The notes under the pieces: generated by a model
The model's database searches: none
What the model saw: the letters and a program-made list of their open reading frames with translations, nothing else
What the model was told of the DNA's origin: nothing
Source: an uncultured Spirochaetota bacterium
Lineage (GTDB): Bacteria; Spirochaetota; Brachyspiria; Brachyspirales; Brachyspiraceae
Length of the DNA: 64,000 bases
Assembly: GCA_944390575.1 (NCBI GenBank)
Contig: CALXQJ010000007.1
Location: 124,001-188,000 of the forward strand
Direction of reading: 5' to 3'
Shown: in pieces, positions 2 to 18,632 of the stretch
Numbering within the stretch: the stretch's first letter is position 1
Layout of the letters: each line of letters opens with the position of its first letter
Program-made: the position numbers and the translations under genes

Positions 2-1222
2 ATCAAAGTAATTTATATAGACCCACCTTATGGTAAAGACCATTTGGGGGAGTTTGCTGATGTAAATTATGATAATGCCATCACGAGAGATAATTTACTT
101 TCAATGCTTTATCCAAGACTAATGCTTGCGAAACAACTTTTACGCGATGATGGCGTCATATTTTGTAGCATAGATGACCGAAACCAAGCTTATGTGAAAT
201 GCTTGTTCGATGAAGTTTTTGGAGAAAGCAATTTTATAGCTAATATTATTTGGCAAAAAAAGAAAGGTGGGAGTCAAGATTCTGAATATTTTGCTAAAGA
301 GCATGAATATATTTTATGTTATACGAAACAAGATTGGAGAATTAATGATAAAACAGAAAAACAAGATGAAAAAGATTTTAATAAAATTATTAATGGTAAG
401 AAAGCAAAAATTTTAAAACTTGAAAAATGGGGAAATCATTCTTTAAAAATAGATAGACCGAGTTTATATTATTCAATTAAAGATCCAAATAATAATGACT
501 TTTATCCTTTAGCACCAAATGGTGAAGATGGTTGTTGGCGTAAAAAACCTGAAAATTTAGATAGTGAACATATTTATTGGCAAAAAGATTCTAAAGGAAG
601 ATTAACACCTTATGAAGTCTTATATTTTGAAGAAATGAAAGAAAAATATAAGATTATTAAAACAAGAACAATTTTTACAGAATATGGTACAACAACTGAC
701 GCTACAAAAGAAATACAAAAAATTTTTGGAGATAAAATTTTTGATACACCAAAACCAACACATTTAATTAAATATCTTATTGATATATCTACTGATATTT
801 CTGAAGACTATATTATACTCGACTTCTTCGCTGGTAGTGGTACTACTGGGCAGGCTATTTTAGAGCTTAATAGGGAGGACGGAGGAAGTAGGCAATTTAT
901 TTTGGTTACAAACAATGAAAAGACAGAATTAAATCAAAATGGCATTGCTTATGATGTTACTTCTAAAAGACTAAAAAGAGTAATGACTGGTGAGTGCTAT
1001 GACAAAACAAAAGATTTTAAATGGTTGGAAAAAAATACTCCTTATGGGGATAGTTTAGAGGTGACTGAAATTGAAACTATTCCATCAAATAATAGAGACA
1101 TTTTTAATTTAATAGATGAAAAACTTTATAATCAAGATTTTAACGGTAATATTCAAGATAAAATAGATTGGGTATGTAGAGAGTTTGAAATTACTTGTAG
1201 TACTATTGAGGAAAAAGAATGA
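2..1222 (+). CDS. mod: Type III restriction-modification DNA methyltransferase (Mod), 5' end outside the window
   Basis: Modification and target-recognition subunit of a type III R-M system; it would transfer a methyl group from SAM to an adenine. The reading frame is open from base 2, so the gene starts upstream; 406 residues are visible. The catalytic DPPY motif lies at visible residues 7-10 (YIDPPYGKD) and the SAM-binding FAGSGTTG motif near base 825. DPPY first and the FxGxG loop last is the beta-class order of type III Mod enzymes, and the stretch IIWQKKKGG is typical of them. The stop overlaps the start of the restriction subunit by four bases (ATGA), so the two are translationally coupled. 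Bases 60-230 and 820-900 use codons such as CGC, CGA, GCG and CTC that are rare elsewhere here, while the middle (target recognition region) is very AT-rich, suggesting a mosaic, acquired gene. Confidence 0.93.
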   Translation: MKVIYIDPPYGKDHLGEFADVNYDNAITRDNLLSMLYPRLMLAKQLLRDDGVIFCSIDDRNQAYVKCLFDEVFGESNFIANIIWQKKKGGSQDSEYFAKEHEYILCYTKQDWRINDKTEKQDEKDFNKIINGKKAKILKLEKWGNHSLKIDRPSLYYSIKDPNNNDFYPLAPNGEDGCWRKKPENLDSEHIYWQKDSKGRLTPYEVLYFEEMKEKYKIIKTRTIFTEYGTTTDATKEIQKIFGDKIFDTPKPTHLIKYLIDISTDISEDYIILDFFAGSGTTGQAILELNREDGGSRQFILVTNNEKTELNQNGIAYDVTSKRLKRVMTGECYDKTKDFKWLEKNTPYGDSLEVTEIETIPSNNRDIFNLIDEKLYNQDFNGNIQDKIDWVCREFEITCSTIEEKE

Positions 1223-3246
1223 AACAAGAAATAATAGAACTTCAAAATAAAGCTATTAACTCTTTAATATATATTGCAAAAACTGGAAAAGAAAATATTA
1301 CATTAAAAGCTCCTACAGGAAGTGGAAAAACTTATATGATGGCAAGCTTTATGAATAGAATGCTATTAGAAGATAAAAATTTAGTCTTTCTTGTTTCAAC
1401 GCCATCAAAAGGGAAATTAGCATCTCAAAACTATGATAGATTTACAGAATTGGCATTAAAGACATTTAGAGAATTAAAAACATTTTATGTTAGTAGTGGT
1501 TTAGAAAATGCAAAAAATACAGAGTATAGTTTATATATAGAAACAAACTATAATGTATTTGTATTACCTACTTCTCAATATACTGACTCTAGTAGAATTA
1601 ATAAAGAAAAAACTTTACTTCAATTTTTAGAAGATTGTAAAAATGCAAAAAGAAAAATAATTCTTATAAGAGATGAAGCTCATATAGCTACAAATAAATT
1701 AAATAAGCTTTCTGAATATTTTGCACAAACTATTAATTTCTCTGCAACACCTAAGGATGATATTTTTGATATATGTATTACTGAAGATGAGGCTGTAGAG
1801 GCTAGTCTTATTAAGAGTGTTGAATATATTGAAGATGATAAAGGGTTAGAAAATAGTTTAAGTGAAGCTTTGGATAAATTTAAAAATGAAATAAAACCTA
1901 CATATTTGAAAAATGGAATAAGACCAGCATTTATAATACAAATATCAAATGCAAACTACGCTGATGAAGAAATAGAAATAATAAAAGGAGTTTTAGAGGA
2001 GAAAGGACTTCAGTGGGTATATTTTGTAGAGAAAGAAAACGGTTATCAAACTAATAGTAGATTAGGAAAAATAAAAAATAAAGCTTTATGGCAAACTTAT
2101 GTTAAGCAAAATGATTTTCCTATTGATGTTATCATTTTTAAAATGGTAATAACAGAAGGTTTTGATATTCCAAGAGCTTGTATGCTTTATCAAGTTAGAG
2201 ATTCAAAATCAAAACAGTTAGATGAACAAGTGATAGGGCGTGTACGTAGAAATCCTGCTTTAACAAATTTTGAAAAGTTAGATAGTCAAACTCAAAACAT
2301 ATTTTCTAAAGCTTATGTATATGGTATAAAACCTGAAAGTCAAGGTAGAAAAAGAATTAAAGTAAACTTAAAAGGTGAAGAACATAAAGAATTATTTAAA
2401 AATCAAATTATTGAAGAGTTTACTCCTTTTAAAATTACTACTTTAAAGGAAGTACCATTAAATGATATAGATATTACTGATTGTATTAAAAAAGATAATA
2501 TGGAGTTCTACACTCAATCTATTTTTGACGCATATAGGATACTTCAAAATACTAGTGATAAAATTAAAGAAAAGCAAAGAGAGTTTGTTACAGACTATGA
2601 TAAATGGTTTTTATTTAATGCTAATTTAGAGTCTATAAAAGATAAAGTTGCATCGGTTGTAGAAAACTATGATAAATATGGACAAGTTGTAGAAATTGAG
2701 ATAAGAGAAAATATTGATAGTTTTTTTGATAACAATGGAAATATAGTTAGAATTAAAGATTGGATTTGGGAGACTGATAATGATAATGAATTTTCTTTTG
2801 ATAGTGAGGTTGAAAAAGAGTGGTTTTATATTCTTGATAAAATAACTAACAAGTGTTGTAAAACTATAGAAATAGATGATAATAGAATATATTTGTTTGG
2901 AAAAAATTTTATACATAACTCTAATATTAAATTTGACTATTATCACAATAGAAAGCATACAAGTTACCCCGACTTTATTCTCAAAGATAAGAAAGATAGA
3001 ATACATATTTTTGAAATAAAAAGTGTAAATAAGACTTCAAATATTATGATTGATGAAGATGAATATAAAGAAAAAATTAGAAAATTAAAAGAAGCGTATA
3101 TATTTGCAAGTAAGAAAACAGGTTATATATTTTATATTCCAATAAAAGTTAATGATGACTGGTATATTTGGAGAAGTGAAAATGGTATTGCTTATGAAGA
3201 AGGCTTAATGAATAAAGATAAGTTTATAGAGTATATTAAAATATAA
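1219..3246 (+). CDS. res: Type III restriction endonuclease (Res), helicase-nuclease subunit
   Basis: ATP-dependent translocase and nuclease partner of the preceding Mod. Superfamily 2 helicase motifs are visible in order: Walker A APTGSGKT at residues 31-38, DEAH at 152-155, SAT at 175-177, and a motif VI region ending QVIGRVRRNP near 340. Near the C-terminus YPDFIL followed by FEIKS matches the PD-(D/E)xK nuclease core of Res subunits. At 675 residues it is shorter than classical EcoP15I-type Res (close to 1000), but all motifs and the nuclease are present, so it looks intact rather than truncated. Its ATG overlaps the mod stop codon, and it ends the R-M operon; no promoter lies between the two. 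Whether the system is active depends on the part of mod outside the window. Confidence 0.92.
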   Translation: MKQEIIELQNKAINSLIYIAKTGKENITLKAPTGSGKTYMMASFMNRMLLEDKNLVFLVSTPSKGKLASQNYDRFTELALKTFRELKTFYVSSGLENAKNTEYSLYIETNYNVFVLPTSQYTDSSRINKEKTLLQFLEDCKNAKRKIILIRDEAHIATNKLNKLSEYFAQTINFSATPKDDIFDICITEDEAVEASLIKSVEYIEDDKGLENSLSEALDKFKNEIKPTYLKNGIRPAFIIQISNANYADEEIEIIKGVLEEKGLQWVYFVEKENGYQTNSRLGKIKNKALWQTYVKQNDFPIDVIIFKMVITEGFDIPRACMLYQVRDSKSKQLDEQVIGRVRRNPALTNFEKLDSQTQNIFSKAYVYGIKPESQGRKRIKVNLKGEEHKELFKNQIIEEFTPFKITTLKEVPLNDIDITDCIKKDNMEFYTQSIFDAYRILQNTSDKIKEKQREFVTDYDKWFLFNANLESIKDKVASVVENYDKYGQVVEIEIRENIDSFFDNNGNIVRIKDWIWETDNDNEFSFDSEVEKEWFYILDKITNKCCKTIEIDDNRIYLFGKNFIHNSNIKFDYYHNRKHTSYPDFILKDKKDRIHIFEIKSVNKTSNIMIDEDEYKEKIRKLKEAYIFASKKTGYIFYIPIKVNDDWYIWRSENGIAYEEGLMNKDKFIEYIKI

Positions 3247-3393: not shown

Positions 3394-4935
3394 ATGAAAA
3401 ATATAGATAAAGTTCTAATATTAGATTTTGGTTCACAGTTTACACAGCTTATAACAAGAAGAATAAGAGAGCTTAATGTATATTCAGAAATACATCCTTT
3501 TAATATAGATATCAATTCTATAAAAAAGTTTAATCCAAAAGCTATAATACTATCAGGTGGACCTTCTTCTGTATATGAGGAAGACGCACCAAAAATAGAT
3601 AAAGAACTATTAAATCTTAATATACCAATACTTGGTATATGTTATGGTATGCAAATAATAGTTCATACTCTTGGAGGTGTAGTAGAGCACTCAGAAAAAA
3701 GAGAGTATGGACAAACTAATATTGATATTACTGATAATACTTCAATATTTTCTGGCTTTTCAAATAAAGGACTTGTATTAATGAGTCATGGTGACAGTAT
3801 TAAACAAGTACCAGAAGGTTTTACTGTTGTAGCAAAGACAGATAATACTCCATACGCTGCTATAGAAAATAAAGAAAAAAATATATATGCAATACAGTTT
3901 CACCCAGAAGTTAATCTTACAGAAAATGGAATAAAGATTATAGAAAACTTTTTATTTAATATTTGTAGGTGTGAAAAAAACTGGAATATGCATTCTTTTA
4001 TAGAGATGGAAATAGAAAATATACGAGAGACTGTTGGAGGTAGTAATGTTATACTTGGGCTTTCTGGTGGAGTTGATTCTTCTGTTGCTGCTGTATTAAT
4101 AGAAAAAGCTATAGGTAAACAACTTAAATGTATATTTGTAAATACTGGTCTTTTGCGCAAGGATGAGGAGAAAAAGGTTATTTCTATTTTTAGAGATAAT
4201 TTTAATATAGAATTAATTTATGTTGATGCTTCTAAGAGATTTTTAGATAAACTTAAAGGTATTAGTGATCCTGAAGAGAAGAGAAAAATTATAGGTTATG
4301 AGTTTGTCAAAGTGTTTGATGAGGAGTCAAAAAATATAGAAAATGCTAAGTTTTTAGCACAAGGTACATTATATCCTGATGTTATAGAGAGTGTATCTAT
4401 ACGTGGTAGTTCTGCTGTTATAAAAAGTCATCATAATGTTGGCGGTATACCTAAAGATATGAAGTTTGAATTGCTTGAACCTTTTAGAGAATTATTTAAA
4501 GATGAAGTTCGTGAAATAGGTTTAGAGCTTAATATACCTGAAGAGATTATTTATAGACAACCTTTTCCTGGTCCTGGTCTTGCTGTTCGTATACTTGGAG
4601 AGATTACAGAGGAGTCGGTTAAAATACTTCAAGAGGCTGATGCTATTGTAGTAGAAGAAATAAAGAATGCTGGTCTTTATAGAAAATTGTGGCAGGCTTT
4701 TGCTGTATTACTTCCTGTAAAGAGTGTTGGTGTTATGGGAGATGGGCGTACTTATGAGAGGGTTTGTGCTATTCGTGCTGTTGATAGTATTGATGCTATG
4801 ACTGCTGATTTTGCAAAAATAGATTATGAAGTTCTTGCTAAAATATCAAGTAGAATTATTAATGAAGTTAAGGGCATTAATAGAGTAGTTTATGATATAT
4901 CTCCAAAACCACCTTCTACAATAGAATGGGAATAA
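3394..4935 (+). CDS. guaA: GMP synthase, glutamine-hydrolysing
   Basis: Converts XMP to GMP using ATP and ammonia released from glutamine; purine nucleotide synthesis in the cytoplasm. The N-terminal class I glutamine amidotransferase domain has the catalytic Cys83 (GICYGMQ) and the His170/Glu172 pair (FHPE). The ATP pyrophosphatase P-loop SGGVDSS is at 224-230, and the C-terminal dimerisation domain includes [12 protein letters not shown] and ends [11 protein letters not shown], the usual terminus of the family. Length 513 is normal. Start ATG has AGGA upstream and its own promoter, so it is transcribed independently of the R-M genes before it. Its last ten bases are shared with the start of a methyltransferase gene. 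Confidence 0.98.
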
Positions 4936-5894
4936 AGAATATTAATAAAAAAATTAAGTCACCTCTAAATAAGACTATAGACTTTGATATTAATAGTGAT
5001 GAGTATAACAAGTTTATAAAAAATTGTATAATTGATGATGAAAGTTTTCTTTATTATAAGTTTGAAAGTATAAAAAACAAAATTATTAATGGCGACACTT
5101 TTAATGTTTTAAAAAAAATAGAGAGTGGTATAGTAGATTTACTTATAGTAGATCCTCCTTATAATATATATAAAAATTATAATGGCTATAGATTTAATGA
5201 GAAAGATAGTGATGAGTATGAAAGCTATACAATTAAGTGGATTGAGGCAGTTTTACCTATTTTAAAATCTAATTCTTCTATATATGTTTGTTGTGATTGG
5301 AAAAGTAGCCTTATTATTGGAAATATACTATCTAAATATTTTACTATACAAAATAGAATAACTTGGCAAAGAGAGAAGGGAAGAGGTGCTAAGCAAAACT
5401 GGAAAAACTCTATGGAAGATATTTGGTTTTGTACTATGAGTGATGTCTATATTTTTAATATAGATAGTGTGAAGATGAGAAGAAAAGTAATAGCACCATA
5501 CAAGGAAAATGGTAAACCTAAAGATTGGGTAGAAACTGAAAATGGAAATTTTAGAGATACTTATCCTTCAAACTTTTGGGATGATATTTCTATTCCATAT
5601 TGGTCTATGCCCGAGAATACTTCTCATCCCACTCAAAAGCCAGAAAAATTAATAGCAAAATTAATTCTTGCAAGTTCTAATGAAAATGATTTTATATTTG
5701 ATCCTTTTAATGGAAGTGGTACTACTTCAGTTGTTGCTAAGAAATTAGGACGAAATTACTCTGGTATAGAACAAAATAGTCTTTATTGTTCTTGGGCAGA
5801 GTATAGATTAAAAGAAGCTGATATAAATAAAAATATACAAGGATATATAGATAATATATTTTGGGAGAGAAACAGTGTGAAATTTAATAGATAG
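4926..5894 (+). CDS. Orphan DNA methyltransferase (beta-class, N6-adenine or N4-cytosine)
   Basis: SAM-dependent DNA methyltransferase of the N4/N6 family, 322 residues. DPPY is at residues 76-79 (IVDPPYN); [10 protein letters not shown] (motif X region) and [10 protein letters not shown] (motif I, SAM loop) come near residues 225-265. This order with a central target-recognition region is the beta class. The start codon lies inside the last codons of guaA (10-base overlap), with no good Shine-Dalgarno sequence, so translation is probably coupled to guaA. No restriction gene is next to it: the downstream gene is an unrelated membrane protein. It may be a solitary regulatory methylase or the left-over of an element inserted at guaA. 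Target sequence cannot be told from here. Confidence 0.9.
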
Positions 5895-6009: not shown

Positions 6010-7041
6010 ATGAATAATCAATTAGATGAAAATAGAATAAAAGAAGGTGTTGGTGGGCAAGCGGTTATTGAAGGTATTATGCTTAGAAATAAAACACACT
6101 ATGTTGTTGCTGTTAGAAAACAAAATAATAAAATAGATTATATTAAACAGCCTGTAGAAGAAAATAATAGCAAGTTTAGAAATGTTGTATTTGTTAGAGG
6201 TGTTATTAATTTTATTCATATGATGAAGCTTGGATATAAAACATTGATGTTTTCTGCAAATACTGCTGGATTAGAAGAAGAAAAAAAATCTAAAAAAGAT
6301 GTAGAAATGAGTAAAGAGAAAAAAGAAAAAAAAGAAAGTATTGCTATGACTTTTAGTATGATGACTTCTCTTTTATTTGCTATTGGACTTTTTATAGCAC
6401 TTCCTTACTTTTTGACAAATCTTATTGGTATTAGTGAGAAAGATAGTGTTGTTGTTTTTAATTTGATACGTGGCGGTATTAAACTAATTATTTTTATTTC
6501 ATATTTGCTTATTATTTCATTTTTTAAAGATGTTAGAAGAGTTTTTGAGTATCATGGTGCTGAACATATGGTTGTAAATGCCTATGAGCATGGTCTTAAT
6601 CCTGATAAGACTAATATTAGAGAATTTACTACTATACATCCTCGTTGTGGTACTACTTTTATGTTTTTAGTATTAACTGTTTCTATTTTACTTTATGTAT
6701 TTACTAGTTATTTTGTTTATTCTGTAATTTTTAATGGTGTTACTCCTGCTAAAATAATTGGTAATCTTACGGTTTTAGCTATTAATATATTATTACTTCC
6801 TATTGTATCTGGAATTTCTTATGAGCTACTTAGAGTTGGATTTAAGTTTTATAAGTTTCCACTTTTTAGAATATTTATGATTCCTGGTCTTGCTTTACAG
6901 TATATTACGACTAAGATTCCTAATGATGAAGAAATTGAAGTGGCTTTATTTGCTTTGGATAAACTTACAGATACTTCAGTTTTAGATAGAACAGAAGAAG
7001 AAGTTCAAAAAGATATAGAAAAAGAAACTTTATGCTCATAA
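6010..7041 (+). CDS. DUF1385 (YqhQ-like) integral membrane protein
   Basis: Member of the DUF1385/YqhQ family of unknown function. The family signature is seen at the N-terminus (GVGGQAVIEGIMLR) and again in the middle (YHGAEHMVVNAYEHG and IHPRCGTTFM). Four or so hydrophobic segments lie between residues 110 and 290, so it sits in the cytoplasmic membrane with a lysine- and glutamate-rich stretch before the first. I chose ATG 6010 rather than ATG 5989 because AAGGAA at 5994-5999 is 10 bases before it, whereas the earlier ATG overlaps that ribosome site. In many bacteria the gene is linked to prfA/prmC; that context is absent here. The next gene starts ten bases before its stop. Confidence 0.88.
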   Translation: MNNQLDENRIKEGVGGQAVIEGIMLRNKTHYVVAVRKQNNKIDYIKQPVEENNSKFRNVVFVRGVINFIHMMKLGYKTLMFSANTAGLEEEKKSKKDVEMSKEKKEKKESIAMTFSMMTSLLFAIGLFIALPYFLTNLIGISEKDSVVVFNLIRGGIKLIIFISYLLIISFFKDVRRVFEYHGAEHMVVNAYEHGLNPDKTNIREFTTIHPRCGTTFMFLVLTVSILLYVFTSYFVYSVIFNGVTPAKIIGNLTVLAINILLLPIVSGISYELLRVGFKFYKFPLFRIFMIPGLALQYITTKIPNDEEIEVALFALDKLTDTSVLDRTEEEVQKDIEKETLCS

Positions 7042-8168
7042 AGAAAAGACTTGTAGAACAAAATGAAAACTACTATGAATATTCTTCTAGGTATATAAGA
7101 AAGTATATTGTTATATTTCTTATAATATTACTTTTTATTTCATTAGTTTTTGTAGTTACATATATTCCCTATAACTTAGTACCTGAAAAATCGCTTAGTA
7201 GGGCTGATATACCTATTTTAGAAGATGATAATTCTATAATGAATAAGAGGGGAGTATATTATAATGGAGTTTTTAGCAATAATACTCCTAAGTCTATTCC
7301 TATATATAATAATATGAATGAGAATTTATATTTATATATTTTTCATGATAATAATATTGTTTTTTGGAAGATTTATAAGTATAAAGATATAAGATACTTT
7401 TCTTATAATGCATTTAATATAATAGATGGAGATGTTCAGTCTTTTATTTTAAAAGAAGAAAATAAAGATTTTTTAGATTTTTATGATAATTTCATAAGAG
7501 TTCAATTTAAAAAAACTAATGCTAAATTTAATTTGGAGATACCTAATTTCTATAACTCATATATTAATTTAGAGACAACAATAGATAATCTAATAGAAGC
7601 TAAATTAAAATTTCGTTTTACAAACTTTAATGCATCAATGATAAATTGGGGTAGAAATAGAGCTTATTATATGGCTAATTATTACGGCTATCCTAATGGT
7701 AGTTTAGTTTTACCTGGTAGTGATAATAATATTAATAATACAAGCACTGTATTGGCATTTAATCTTGTAGGTAGAAATCCAACAAGATATATTCATAATA
7801 TTATAGCAGGTACTATCTATGTTCCTTATAGTTCTAAGGCTATACCAATTTTTATATATGATACTAAGCCATATTCACAAAACTCAAAGACTATAAAAAT
7901 ATACTTTAATAATAAGTGGTATGAGTATAAAGATTTTATTTCACATGAATACAAAGATGTTATAGATTTTTATTCTAAGGAGCATGGTTTTAGTTTTGTG
8001 TTTACTATCACAAGTAAGGATAAAATTTTAGAAGATAATTTTGGAAGTGTACGTTTGTTTGACAATAAAATATACTTTGGTGTTTTAAGTGGATATTTCA
8101 CTATAAATGATGAGCAGTATAATATTACTGGTAATGCAGTTTTGGAAAATCTACATAAGGTATTTTAA
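7032..8168 (+). CDS. Hypothetical single-pass membrane protein
   Basis: I do not recognise the family. 378 residues: a short basic cytoplasmic stretch, one strong membrane helix at about residues 28-47 (YIVIFLIILLFISLVFVV), then a large extracytoplasmic domain rich in Tyr, Asn and Ile with no catalytic motif I can name. It contains several aromatic-rich beta-strand-like segments, and could be a surface or periplasmic binding domain. The ATG overlaps the end of the DUF1385 gene by ten bases, so the pair is probably one operon and may act together at the membrane. The gene ends five bases before the stop of the convergent flavodoxin pseudogene. Confidence 0.75.
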   Translation: MLIKKRLVEQNENYYEYSSRYIRKYIVIFLIILLFISLVFVVTYIPYNLVPEKSLSRADIPILEDDNSIMNKRGVYYNGVFSNNTPKSIPIYNNMNENLYLYIFHDNNIVFWKIYKYKDIRYFSYNAFNIIDGDVQSFILKEENKDFLDFYDNFIRVQFKKTNAKFNLEIPNFYNSYINLETTIDNLIEAKLKFRFTNFNASMINWGRNRAYYMANYYGYPNGSLVLPGSDNNINNTSTVLAFNLVGRNPTRYIHNIIAGTIYVPYSSKAIPIFIYDTKPYSQNSKTIKIYFNNKWYEYKDFISHEYKDVIDFYSKEHGFSFVFTITSKDKILEDNFGSVRLFDNKIYFGVLSGYFTINDEQYNITGNAVLENLHKVF

Positions 8169-8173
8169 TTATA

Positions 8174-8709
8174 TTATAGTGTACTTATTATATTACTTAT
8201 GTTATTTCTATCTATAAAATTTTTATTTTCACCAAAAGTTTTTATAAACAATTTTTCTGATTCTGTTTTTTTGATTTTAAGCATTAAAAATATTTTTAAC
8301 ATACTCATCATAAATCTGTGTTTAGAGTTTAATTTATCAAAGTTGATAGCACCTCTTAAAAAATAAAATTTAATACTTGTTTTTTCATAATCATTAAAAT
8401 TTTTAGATATAGCATTATTGTAATATTCTATATTAGAAGTATCAGTTAAACCTACTAATATGTAGTATATATTTTTATCTTTTATTTTATTAAATATTTT
8501 TTGAATGACTTTATATTTGATAATTTACCAGCATATAATGCTGAAATAAAAATAATCTTATTATAAGAACTTATTTCATCTAATGATATATTTTTATTAT
8601 ATTCTAATACATCAGAGCAAAACTCCTCAGATATATATTTTGCATATATCTGAGAAGTTCCATAAATACTATTATATATTATAAGAGTATCTTTTTTCTG
8701 ATTATTCAT
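8174..8709 (-). pseudogene. Flavodoxin-domain protein (HemG-like), frameshifted
   Basis: The intact N-terminal part reads as a flavodoxin: LIIYNSIYGTSQIYAKYI is the FMN phosphate-binding loop region, followed by IIFISALYAGKL. The frame stops at 8482, but the adjacent frame continues to a stop at 8174-8176 with IYYILVGLTD and FYFLRGAINFDKL, matching the C-terminal half of flavodoxins of the menaquinone-dependent protoporphyrinogen oxidase (HemG) kind. Adding one A to the A6 run (8497-8502 on the complementary strand) restores a single protein of about 178 residues, the normal length. It follows cheB by 20 bases and is the last gene of the che transcription unit. The break could be real, switchable, or a sequencing error in a homopolymer. 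Confidence 0.8.
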
Positions 8710-8729
8710 ATTATCTATTTTTTATATAT

Positions 8730-9863
8730 TTATGCTTTTTTAAGTGCAGCAGCTAAAATTTTATCTAGTGGTAAAATTTCATCAACCCCACCACGAGCAA
8801 TAGCTTCACGAGGCATACCAAATACAGTACAAGTCTCTTCATTTTGAGCAATATTGTATGCACCCATATCTTTCATTTCTTTCATACCATTAGCACCATC
8901 ATCACCCATTCCAGTTAAGATAATACCAATAGCTTTGTTTTTAGCATAAACAGCACCACTTCTAAATAATACATCAACAGAGGGTTTATGACGAGTTACA
9001 GGCTCTCCATCTCTAACTTCAATAAAGTATTTTCCATTTTTTACTTTAATCATAGTATGTTTAGCACCACGAGCAAGTACAGCTTGTCCTCTTTCTATAC
9101 TCATACCATCCTCAGATTCTCTTACTTCTATTTTTAATATAGAGTTTAATCTTTTTGCAAAAGAAGTAGTAAATCCTTCAGGCATATGTTGAGCTATTAC
9201 TATAGGCGGAGCAGAAGGAGTAACATTTTTTAAACATTCTATTAAAGCCTCAGTACCACCAGTAGAAGAACCTATTAAAATAATTTTATCAGTAGGAACT
9301 TCCTTAGAAGGAGCAAGAGGTAATATAATATCAGCAGTATTTTTTTGATGTACTTTAAAACTGGAAGTTTTAGGAGCTTCTACTTCTATAGCAGGAGTTT
9401 TAGCTATAGACATACGAGTTTCTTCTGAAATAGTAACACCATGTTTTTTATAAAACTTAGCTCTGTTATTGTAGGCATTTTTAATTTTTTCAACTAAGTC
9501 AGTAGCTAAATCCTCAACACCACCTCTAACATTCGCCGATGGTTTTATAACATAGTCAAAAGCACCAATATTTAAAGCATCAAGAGCTAGTTCTCTATGT
9601 TTATCAAGTAAAGAACTAAACATTATTACAGGTATAGGATTATTAAGCATTAACTTTTTTAAATAAGTGATACCATCCATTTCAGGCATCTCTATATCTA
9701 AAGTAATAATATCAGGTTTTAACATTTTTACTTTACTATCTGCTAAAATAGGATTAGCAGCAGTACCTACCATTTCCAAATTAGGATCAGAGTTTACAAT
9801 TTTTGTAAGTAACTGCCTAATTAATGCACTGTCATCAATAGATAATACTTTTATTTTGCTCAT
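8730..9863 (-). CDS. cheB: Chemotaxis response regulator protein-glutamate methylesterase
   Basis: Removes methyl groups from (and deamidates glutamines in) chemoreceptors, giving adaptation; activated by phosphotransfer from CheA. The N-terminal receiver domain has the acidic pocket (IDDSALIRQLL) and the phosphoacceptor in TLDIEMPEMDG, with KPS as the conserved lysine region. The C-terminal esterase has Ser in GSSTGGTEAL, His in AQHMPEGFT and Asp in GMGDDGANGM, i.e. the full triad. About 377 residues. I start at ATG 9863: AAGGA lies nine bases upstream, while a TTG at 9872 would abut that site. It lies 20 bases after cheD in the che operon. Confidence 0.97.
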   Translation of the reverse strand: MSKIKVLSIDDSALIRQLLTKIVNSDPNLEMVGTAANPILADSKVKMLKPDIITLDIEMPEMDGITYLKKLMLNNPIPVIMFSSLLDKHRELALDALNIGAFDYVIKPSANVRGGVEDLATDLVEKIKNAYNNRAKFYKKHGVTISEETRMSIAKTPAIEVEAPKTSSFKVHQKNTADIILPLAPSKEVPTDKIILIGSSTGGTEALIECLKNVTPSAPPIVIAQHMPEGFTTSFAKRLNSILKIEVRESEDGMSIERGQAVLARGAKHTMIKVKNGKYFIEVRDGEPVTRHKPSVDVLFRSGAVYAKNKAIGIILTGMGDDGANGMKEMKDMGAYNIAQNEETCTVFGMPREAIARGGVDEILPLDKILAAALKKA

Positions 9864-9883
9864 AGATTTCAATCCTTATTTAA

Positions 9884-16750: not shown

Positions 16751-16779
16751 ATTATACTATTAATTTTGCAATAGTTTAA
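16751..16779 (-). promoter_or_regulatory. Possible promoter of the chemotaxis genes
   Basis: Read on the minus strand: TTAAAC (16774-16779), 17 bases, TATAAT (16751-16756), about 40 bases before the receptor-like gene. The -10 is perfect, the -35 weak. It overlaps the 3' end of nadE. Confidence 0.35.
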
Positions 16780-18632
16780 CTCATTATACTTTTTTTAAGG
16801 CGTATATACTTATCGGAAAAAGATATTAAATTTTGTACTTCTTTAATAGCTCCACCAAAAGTTCTATTTGTTAATGATAGTATAGGAGGAGACTGTACTC
16901 TTTTGTATACAGATATAAGGTGTTGTTTGTACCATTTTTCTAAGTCTTCTATAAACTCTAAGTGTGTATTAAAATATTTCTTTATTATACCTTTTTCACA
17001 ACCTATATTCTCTTCTAAGCTTCCATCTATATACCATTTTAAAATATCTTCTGGCATAACTCTGTTAAATACTTCTGTAAATGCTTTAAATAGATAATCA
17101 TGGTAATTATATTTTATAGGGTCGCCTTTTCCTTCATCCACAGCCTGATTTGTAGATAGTTCAGCAGATGGTATAATATCAATAGTTCCTTGCGGTATTA
17201 CTTCTTTTTTAAATACTTCTTCATTCATATATTTAGCAAGACCATATATTTGATATTTCCATAAATCTGCAAGTGCAGCAAAAAAACCAGCATTATCTCC
17301 ATACATAGTGCAATAACCTACAAATGTCTCTGTTTTATTTGCATTACAAGTAAATACTGCATTAAATCCTGCAGATATTCCAGCAAGTATACGAGATGAT
17401 CTATCCCTAGCTTGTATATTTTCAGTCATAAATTGTGTTATAGTTAAAAATGATTCTTTACCATTTTTTATCATTGGTATACTTTGAAACTGATTAATAC
17501 TAAAATCTACAGATTCTTGAATAGGTACTATCATATATGCACAATTAAGATTATCAGCTAAAGTTTTTGCTAAGTTTTTAGTTGTATTAGAATTATATTT
17601 ACTTGGCATATTAACAAGAAGTACATTATCAGCACCAATACTATCTACATATATAGCAGAAGATAAAGCAGAGTCTATACCACCAGATACACCAATAACA
17701 ACTTTTTCAGCACCTATAGTACGCATAAAATTTCTTATACCATACTTAATGGACTCATATATACTTTTATATGTATTTTCATTTTTATATAAACTTGAAA
17801 TAGTGTTGTTATCTATTTCTAAGTCAATAAAATATAGATTTTCTTCATATCTATTAGCTTCAAAAATTAACTCTCCTTTTTTATTATATGCAGAACTTAA
17901 ACCATCAAATACGTATATATTTTTAGAGCTACTTTGTATACCTGTATTATTAACATATATAATATTACTATTATGTTTTTTAGATGTGTTTGATAAGTTT
18001 TCATTAATTATATTATTATTTCCTATAGAGTATTTATTATTTGCAATAGTTATTATTAAGTCTATATTATTTTCTGTGTAGTTTAATATAGAGTTTTTAG
18101 ATATAATGTCACTATAAAAAGATATAGCTACATTATACTTTTTAGAGTTTATATCAAGTTCTATAGTATTATAATATTCTTTTATAGTTTTATTATTCTC
18201 ATAAGCTAAGTCTTTTAGGCTAAAAAAATGTCTATTTTCATTATATTCATTATAGTTTAATAAGTTATTTTTTATTATAAAGTCTGTGTGTTTTTGCTTC
18301 ACTAATTTACCATCTTTGGCTACAAATATAGAGTTGTATTTTCTGATTCTACCATCTGCACCAATATTATCTTTGTCTATAGCAACAGTTCCAAATATTA
18401 CGTATATACCATTTGACTCTTCTATTATTTTTTTATTGTACTCATCTATTTCTTCTACAAAGCTTCTACTTTCTAATATGTCATTAATAAAAGAACCTAT
18501 AGTAGAAAGCTCTGGAAATATAATAATATCAGCATTATTTTGTTTTGCTTTTTTTATAGAATCTATTATTCTCTTAGTATTGTCTAAAATCTCTAAAGTG
18601 TTTATTTTGAATTGACATATAGCAATATTCAT
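16776..18632 (-). CDS. nadE: NAD synthetase with a degenerate glutaminase domain
   Basis: Forms NAD from deamido-NAD, ATP and an amino donor. The C-terminal synthetase domain is intact: the P-loop GVSGGIDSALSS and the family motifs NIQARDRSSRILAG and GYCTMYGD. The N-terminal 280 residues are a nitrilase-fold glutaminase domain; Glu41 (FPELS) and Lys114 of the triad are kept, but the catalytic Cys position (normally in a context like TICEDIW) reads SFYSDII, with Tyr173 (codon TAT at 18114-18116, one transition from TGT). No other cysteine is near. The enzyme may therefore depend on free ammonia. 618 residues, normal for the two-domain type. AGAGGA precedes the ATG. It lies 67 bases upstream of the che genes on the same strand. 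Confidence 0.93.
   Translation of the reverse strand: MNIAICQFKINTLEILDNTKRIIDSIKKAKQNNADIIIFPELSTIGSFINDILESRSFVEEIDEYNKKIIEESNGIYVIFGTVAIDKDNIGADGRIRKYNSIFVAKDGKLVKQKHTDFIIKNNLLNYNEYNENRHFFSLKDLAYENNKTIKEYYNTIELDINSKKYNVAISFYSDIISKNSILNYTENNIDLIITIANNKYSIGNNNIINENLSNTSKKHNSNIIYVNNTGIQSSSKNIYVFDGLSSAYNKKGELIFEANRYEENLYFIDLEIDNNTISSLYKNENTYKSIYESIKYGIRNFMRTIGAEKVVIGVSGGIDSALSSAIYVDSIGADNVLLVNMPSKYNSNTTKNLAKTLADNLNCAYMIVPIQESVDFSINQFQSIPMIKNGKESFLTITQFMTENIQARDRSSRILAGISAGFNAVFTCNANKTETFVGYCTMYGDNAGFFAALADLWKYQIYGLAKYMNEEVFKKEVIPQGTIDIIPSAELSTNQAVDEGKGDPIKYNYHDYLFKAFTEVFNRVMPEDILKWYIDGSLEENIGCEKGIIKKYFNTHLEFIEDLEKWYKQHLISVYKRVQSPPILSLTNRTFGGAIKEVQNLISFSDKYIRLKKSIMS

Follow-up and report, generated by a model that had tools for sequence, protein, structure and literature searches.

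Does a NAD synthetase that still carries a full-length glutaminase domain necessarily take its nitrogen from glutamine? The choice between ammonia and glutamine has been framed as the absence or presence of the glutaminase domain (De Ingeniis 2012, PMC3376133), and the literature on NadE classification recognizes fused forms that use glutamine, single-domain forms that use ammonia and rare two-subunit forms. The question is raised by the nadE gene of an uncultured Brachyspira (assembly GCA_944390575.1), which we analyzed within a 64,000-nucleotide stretch of contig CALXQJ010000007.1 (positions 124,001 to 188,000), hereafter the window. An earlier note on this DNA had proposed that the glutaminase nucleophile of the enzyme has become a tyrosine, so that the enzyme would need free ammonia or the domain would have kept only a structural role.

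A two-domain NadE with tyrosine at the nucleophile position

The nadE gene occupies 16776–18632 of the window on the minus strand and encodes a protein of 618 aa, which open reading frame, Pfam, NCBIfam and own-genome searches identified as a two-domain NAD synthetase. Its nitrilase-type glutaminase domain spans residues 1–275 (17808–18632, minus strand), as delimited by Pfam, column loss and AlphaFold2/Foldseek, and is followed by the synthetase domain of residues 276–618 (16779–17807, minus strand). Pfam matched PF00795 (CN_hydrolase) at residues 3–271 (E = 6e-11) and PF02540 (NAD_synthase; E = 2e-39), both above cut-off, and the NCBIfam model TIGR00552 scored the protein at 111 bits against a cut-off of 64. 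The synthetase motifs are intact (SGGIDS etc.), with the PP-loop SGGxDS and the substrate residues that define the NadE family, and the fusion to an N-terminal nitrilase domain is the architecture of glutamine-dependent NadE (NadE-Gln). With its nitrilase domain and 618 aa, the protein falls outside the single-domain NadE-NH3 class, which has no glutaminase domain. NadE is encoded by a single copy in this genome; a second one was ruled out by the own-genome search, in which the other weak match was GuaA. A scan of genome contigs with the window protein as query returned no relative.

We aligned the protein with NadEs of 24 other Brachyspira genomes and six outgroups from other spirochaetes. 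No NadE was matched in one further Brachyspira assembly (G002; 91% complete and 7% contaminated), hence the comparison with 24 congeners. Codon 173 (18114–18116, minus strand; ATA on the plus strand) is TAT and places Tyr exactly on the nucleophile, as the earlier note had read it. All 24 congeners have Cys at this position (12 TGT and 12 TGC codons), as do the six outgroups, and Tyr is confined within the genus to the window's species. Codons 172–177 (18102–18119, minus strand) read F-Y-S-D-I-I where relatives have I-C-E-D-x-W; the longer stretch is S-F-Y-S-D-I-I, whereas all other Brachyspira NadEs found read T-I-C-E-D-(A/M/I)-W, and congeners and outgroups share x-I-C-E-D-x-W. The catalytic Glu (Glu41, 18510–18512, minus strand) is kept, again as claimed. 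The catalytic Lys, in contrast, had been misassigned to Lys114, a nearby lysine: it is K121 (18270–18272, minus strand), within K-N-N-L-L-N-Y and numbered as Lys121 of M. tuberculosis NadE. Tyr127 and Glu129, of the equivalent of the YRE loop, are also retained. The Cys-Glu-Lys triad of NadE-Gln is thus represented by Glu41 and Lys121, with Tyr173 in place of Cys. Codon 209 (18006–18008, minus strand) is Ile, in contrast to the Lys or Arg of all other Brachyspira; we take its equivalent to be a glutamine-carboxylate contact in the M. tuberculosis enzyme. The glutamine pocket has changed as well (E174S, W177I): the residues equivalent to E174 and W177 are Glu177 and Phe180 in M. tuberculosis and Glu176 and Trp179 in the human enzyme, and they form and gate the glutamine site (PMC6946656). 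Another cysteine of the domain as nucleophile was rejected, and no replacement is apparent, as the sole cysteine in residues 1–275 is C6, in the first strand.

Decay is confined to the glutaminase domain

The AlphaFold2 model of the protein (21-sequence alignment; pTM 0.87, mean pLDDT 86) contains the nitrilase sandwich, with lower confidence at residues 121–130 and 181–190, and its best Foldseek matches are glutamine-dependent NadEs. The glutaminase fold is therefore predicted to be intact.

Conservation of the two domains was compared over universal columns, defined as invariant in 22 full-length Brachyspira congeners and the six outgroups. The window protein has lost 9 of 29 such columns in the glutaminase domain versus 1 of 46 in the synthetase domain (Fisher p = 6e-4), which bears out the claim that the synthetase domain is intact. 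The nine losses (Y47S, P125L, F130Y, I172F, C173Y, E174S, W177I, one deleted Pro and S199N) are for the most part near the active site, within the Cys motif, the serine motif and the region of the YRE loop. Columns invariant only within the genus gave the same picture, with 55 of 133 lost in the glutaminase versus 29 of 195 in the synthetase (p = 9e-8). As a fraction of the remainder of a fixed, shared tree, the window branch amounted to 0.67 for the glutaminase and 0.37 for the synthetase, compared with 0.44 and 0.41 for the two domains of GuaA, and the glutaminase ratio exceeded that of the synthetase in 40 of 40 bootstraps. The domain comparison and the GuaA baseline rule out a fast-evolving genome in place of local decay.

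That TAT is one transition from TGT, as the earlier note remarked, holds for the codon and is what would make a sequencing or assembly error in a gene that really has the Cys conceivable. The remark misleads, however, because the Thr-Ile-Cys-Glu-Asp-x-Trp motif is altered at five positions, which a base-calling error cannot explain. With nine universal columns changed in one domain, four of them in the Cys motif, an open frame and a genome rated 99.84% complete, such an error has next to no chance of being the answer. That the glutaminase is really dead, and by more than a point change, is well supported by these comparisons.

In this lineage nadE as a whole has diverged further than GuaA, as might happen if the gene were turning into a pseudogene and NAD came by another route, such as NMN or NR salvage. 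The synthetase domain, however, keeps 45 of 46 universal columns. Furthermore, the genome encodes a PncB-type NAPRTase and NadD, found in searches for these two families; NaAD, to which they lead, should therefore still need NadE. We regard a decaying nadE as highly unlikely.

Other amidotransferases retain their cysteines

As a control, we examined guaA (3394–4935, plus strand), which genome search and alignment showed to encode a class I amidotransferase with an intact catalytic Cys (LGICYGMQ). The plus-strand regions around it (44–3246 and 4926–5894) hold restriction-modification-like genes, namely two N6/N4 DNA methylases and one ResIII/DEAD protein. CarA, PyrG, a PuuD-like hydrolase and Lnt of the same genome also retain their catalytic cysteines, and a genome-wide loss of amidotransferase cysteines was thus ruled out. 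Because GuaA, CarA and PyrG keep theirs, the loss in NadE is specific; because the same three enzymes still look glutamine-dependent, the cell must obtain glutamine from somewhere.

If the NadE glutaminase is dead, another glutaminase or amidase might supply ammonia in trans and use the dead domain as a docking site. A two-subunit NADS is known in Thermus (PMC3376133), and the persistence of the domain would suit such a role. Against this, the only other nitrilase-family protein found in the genome is the membrane N-acyltransferase Lnt, and a search covering class I enzymes gave three amidotransferases and one PuuD-like hydrolase, each with a role of its own. Supply in trans is accordingly very unlikely in our judgment. 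An Amt-type ammonium transporter (PF00909) was ruled out as the ammonia source: none was found in any of the 26 Brachyspira genomes searched, while 14 of 14 control genomes have one.

The domain may instead have gained a new function, as a sensor binding glutamine, PII or another ligand, and so be more than a scaffold. Glu41, K121, Tyr127 and Glu129 are kept, and in other bacteria dimeric NadE-Gln is a target of PII regulation (PMC7196632). The residues that would hold glutamine are gone, though, no new conserved motif is apparent, and the closest dead relative (G148, described below) decays differently, with Gln at the catalytic Glu. We consider a sensor role improbable.

Glutamine synthetase is undetectable in the window's genome

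Within the genus, the feature found to set the window's species apart is that it lacks glutamine synthetase. PF00120 is matched in each of the 25 other Brachyspira genomes, whereas the window's genome gave no match; the congeners and 14 control genomes served as positive controls. A full-length glutamine synthetase of a congener, used as query against the window's genome, returned nothing even at E <= 10. The genome is also smaller, at 2.0 Mb versus 2.5–3.4 Mb in other Brachyspira.

In hyodysenteriae-type genomes, glutamine synthetase lies about 10 kb from nadE. The order in B. hampsonii (G024; loci L076 and L077) is nadE, an MCP-like gene, cheY-like, cheA-like, a 176-aa gene, cheR, cheD, cheB, an unknown gene and glutamine synthetase, followed in L077 by one unknown gene and a 375-aa gene (cheR, cheD, cheB and MCP-like names are from Pfam). 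In the window, the orthologue of the 375-aa gene (7032–8168) adjoins cheB (8730–9872) across 561 bp, and synteny with L076/L077 identifies this interval (8169–8729, no strand assigned) as the site of the congeners' glutamine synthetase and two other genes. A remnant of glutamine synthetase in the interval was ruled out by tblastn, which found no trace of it. The minus strand of the interval carries a frameshifted flavodoxin-like open reading frame. Gene order makes it likely that glutamine synthetase was deleted from this nadE-proximal site in the window's lineage; its ancestral position is uncertain, since the gene is located elsewhere in other Brachyspira clades (G014, G021).

GlnA has been described as a major ammonium-assimilating route of B. 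hyodysenteriae (PMC2650404). In Salmonella, either ammonia or a glnA mutation rescues strains with an impaired NadE, which has been read as competition for ammonia (PMC3376133); on this rationale, a cell without glutamine synthetase would have scarce glutamine and spared ammonia. The co-occurrence of the two losses is suggestive of a link between them.

Dead glutaminase domains recur across spirochaetes

A full-length NadE with a dead glutaminase had been expected to be unusual. We searched 296 spirochaete genomes and classed 96 NadE sequences residue by residue: 76 have intact triads, two are short, one is a partial piece and 17 have dead glutaminase domains. The 17, from seven families, comprise the window's genome (G000), G148, seven genomes of family f37, four of f35, and G277, G130, G102 and G034. 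L178 (G177), which had looked dead, was left out because its sequence is truncated. Spread over seven families, and present in a sister genus and in all f37 genomes sampled, such dead domains show that the window NadE is no solitary oddity.

In G148 (L098), of sister genus g19, the triad reads Q-K-Y: Tyr takes the place of the Cys (IIYQDGSD), Gln that of the catalytic Glu, and glutamine synthetase is retained. A single loss common to G000 and G148 was considered; NadE trees and the AU test give no decision either way (p-AU 0.34 for a clade shared by the two, 0.56 for the genus without G148). Sister genus g18, in the same family as Brachyspira, has a single-domain NadE of 286–287 aa (L115 and L116 of G059 and G068), and the two-domain form appears to have been replaced or lost there, another way of losing the glutaminase.

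All seven f37 NadEs (L103–L109) are without any triad residue, yet keep an N-terminal domain of about 250 aa. We infer that these genomes, with chromosomes of about 0.9 Mb, are Borrelia-like; no glutamine synthetase was found in those with a sampled NadE. All four sampled f35 NadEs (L110–L113) have a dead glutaminase. Their N-terminal domains, like that of L114 (G277), are shortened, yet the NAD synthetase to which they remain joined is intact, and the three f35 proteins examined lack any cysteine in this domain. Mean identity of the dead domains is 57% in f37 (synthetase 73%) and 65% in f35 (synthetase 74%), values that would fit continued structural constraint; retention alone is weak evidence of constraint, because a domain fused upstream is not free to gain stop codons.

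Glutamine synthetase was undetected in 11 of the 17 dead-glutaminase genomes, absence in some genomes meaning that it was not among the matches listed. Only three genomes with intact triads lack it, all of them assemblies 93% complete or less. Genus g23 (family f19), whose NadE is outside the sequences classed, also lacks glutamine synthetase. The genome-level association gave a Fisher p of 6e-8, in a test that ignores shared ancestry and is not phylogenetic. Loss of glutamine synthetase is not necessary for a dead glutaminase, because G148, G130 (f41), G102 (f28), G034 (f10) and two of the four f35 genomes keep the synthetase; G102 also has a second NadE-like match. By removing the main competitor for ammonia together with the source of glutamine, this loss may have been a recurrent trigger, with one Brachyspira lineage showing both losses, a proposal to which we give somewhat less than an even chance. 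The ammonia-rich gut, to which the earlier note had pointed, may be relevant and is insufficient as an explanation by itself, since other Brachyspira are also gut spirochaetes and keep the Cys.

Discussion

We consider it very probable, from the residues and the distribution of decay, that the window NadE depends on ammonia and keeps its glutaminase domain as a scaffold. The core of the earlier proposal is supported in that glutamine-site residues are gone as well and decay is confined to one domain, while its view of the case as unusual and its pointer to the gut need changing. For ammonia dependence taken by itself, the residues make a strong case. Two-domain NadEs accept free ammonia as a substrate, and the human one does not prefer glutamine to it (PMC6946656). 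The synthetase half would activate NaAD with ATP as usual and take NH3 from the cytosol; the nitrilase half, unable to form the gamma-glutamyl thioester or hold glutamine, would persist for structural reasons, as it packs onto the synthetase half and makes the fold and oligomer complete. Loss of glutamine synthetase may have relaxed selection on the glutaminase. Counting against this picture are the lack of an Amt-type transporter match in every Brachyspira searched, the apparent glutamine dependence of GuaA, CarA and PyrG, and the genomes that combine a dead glutaminase with glutamine synthetase.

The protein is a clear homologue of "type F" NadE-Gln (A. baumannii 5kha, B. thailandensis 4f4h, M. 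tuberculosis Rv2438c) in domain order, predicted fold, catalytic Glu and Lys and complete synthetase motifs, but differs in the Cys-to-Tyr change, the replaced pocket Glu, Trp and Lys/Arg and a short sequence loss after the motif. Like the single-domain NadEs of the E. coli and B. subtilis type, whose size the short g18 proteins share, it is expected to use ATP and NH3 on NaAD, whereas its full-length nitrilase domain places it outside that subfamily by architecture. Human CPS1 likewise retains an inherited glutaminase-like domain without the catalytic Cys and uses external ammonia (PMC4655335), but its glutaminase belongs to an unrelated class (Cys-His-Glu triad, Cys to Ser) in another enzyme family, with no homology. 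The M. tuberculosis C176A mutant (PDB 3sdb, 3seq, 3sez, 3szg) has also lost the nucleophile and kept the fold; it is an engineered single change, whereas the window NadE is natural and more widely decayed.

Text searches of the open-access literature found no report of a natural dead-glutaminase NadE, which is not proof of novelty; such enzymes are apparently an undescribed, recurrent kind. They represent a third state, fused but with a catalytically dead domain; annotation that goes by domain architecture will label them glutamine-dependent. A link with glutamine synthetase loss is a hypothesis that can be tested. These enzymes also let one ask, in a system provided by nature, whether an essential amidation can run on free ammonia in vivo, and they give CPS1 a bacterial counterpart. 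They further predict a gut spirochaete lineage that would depend on ammonia and imported glutamine.
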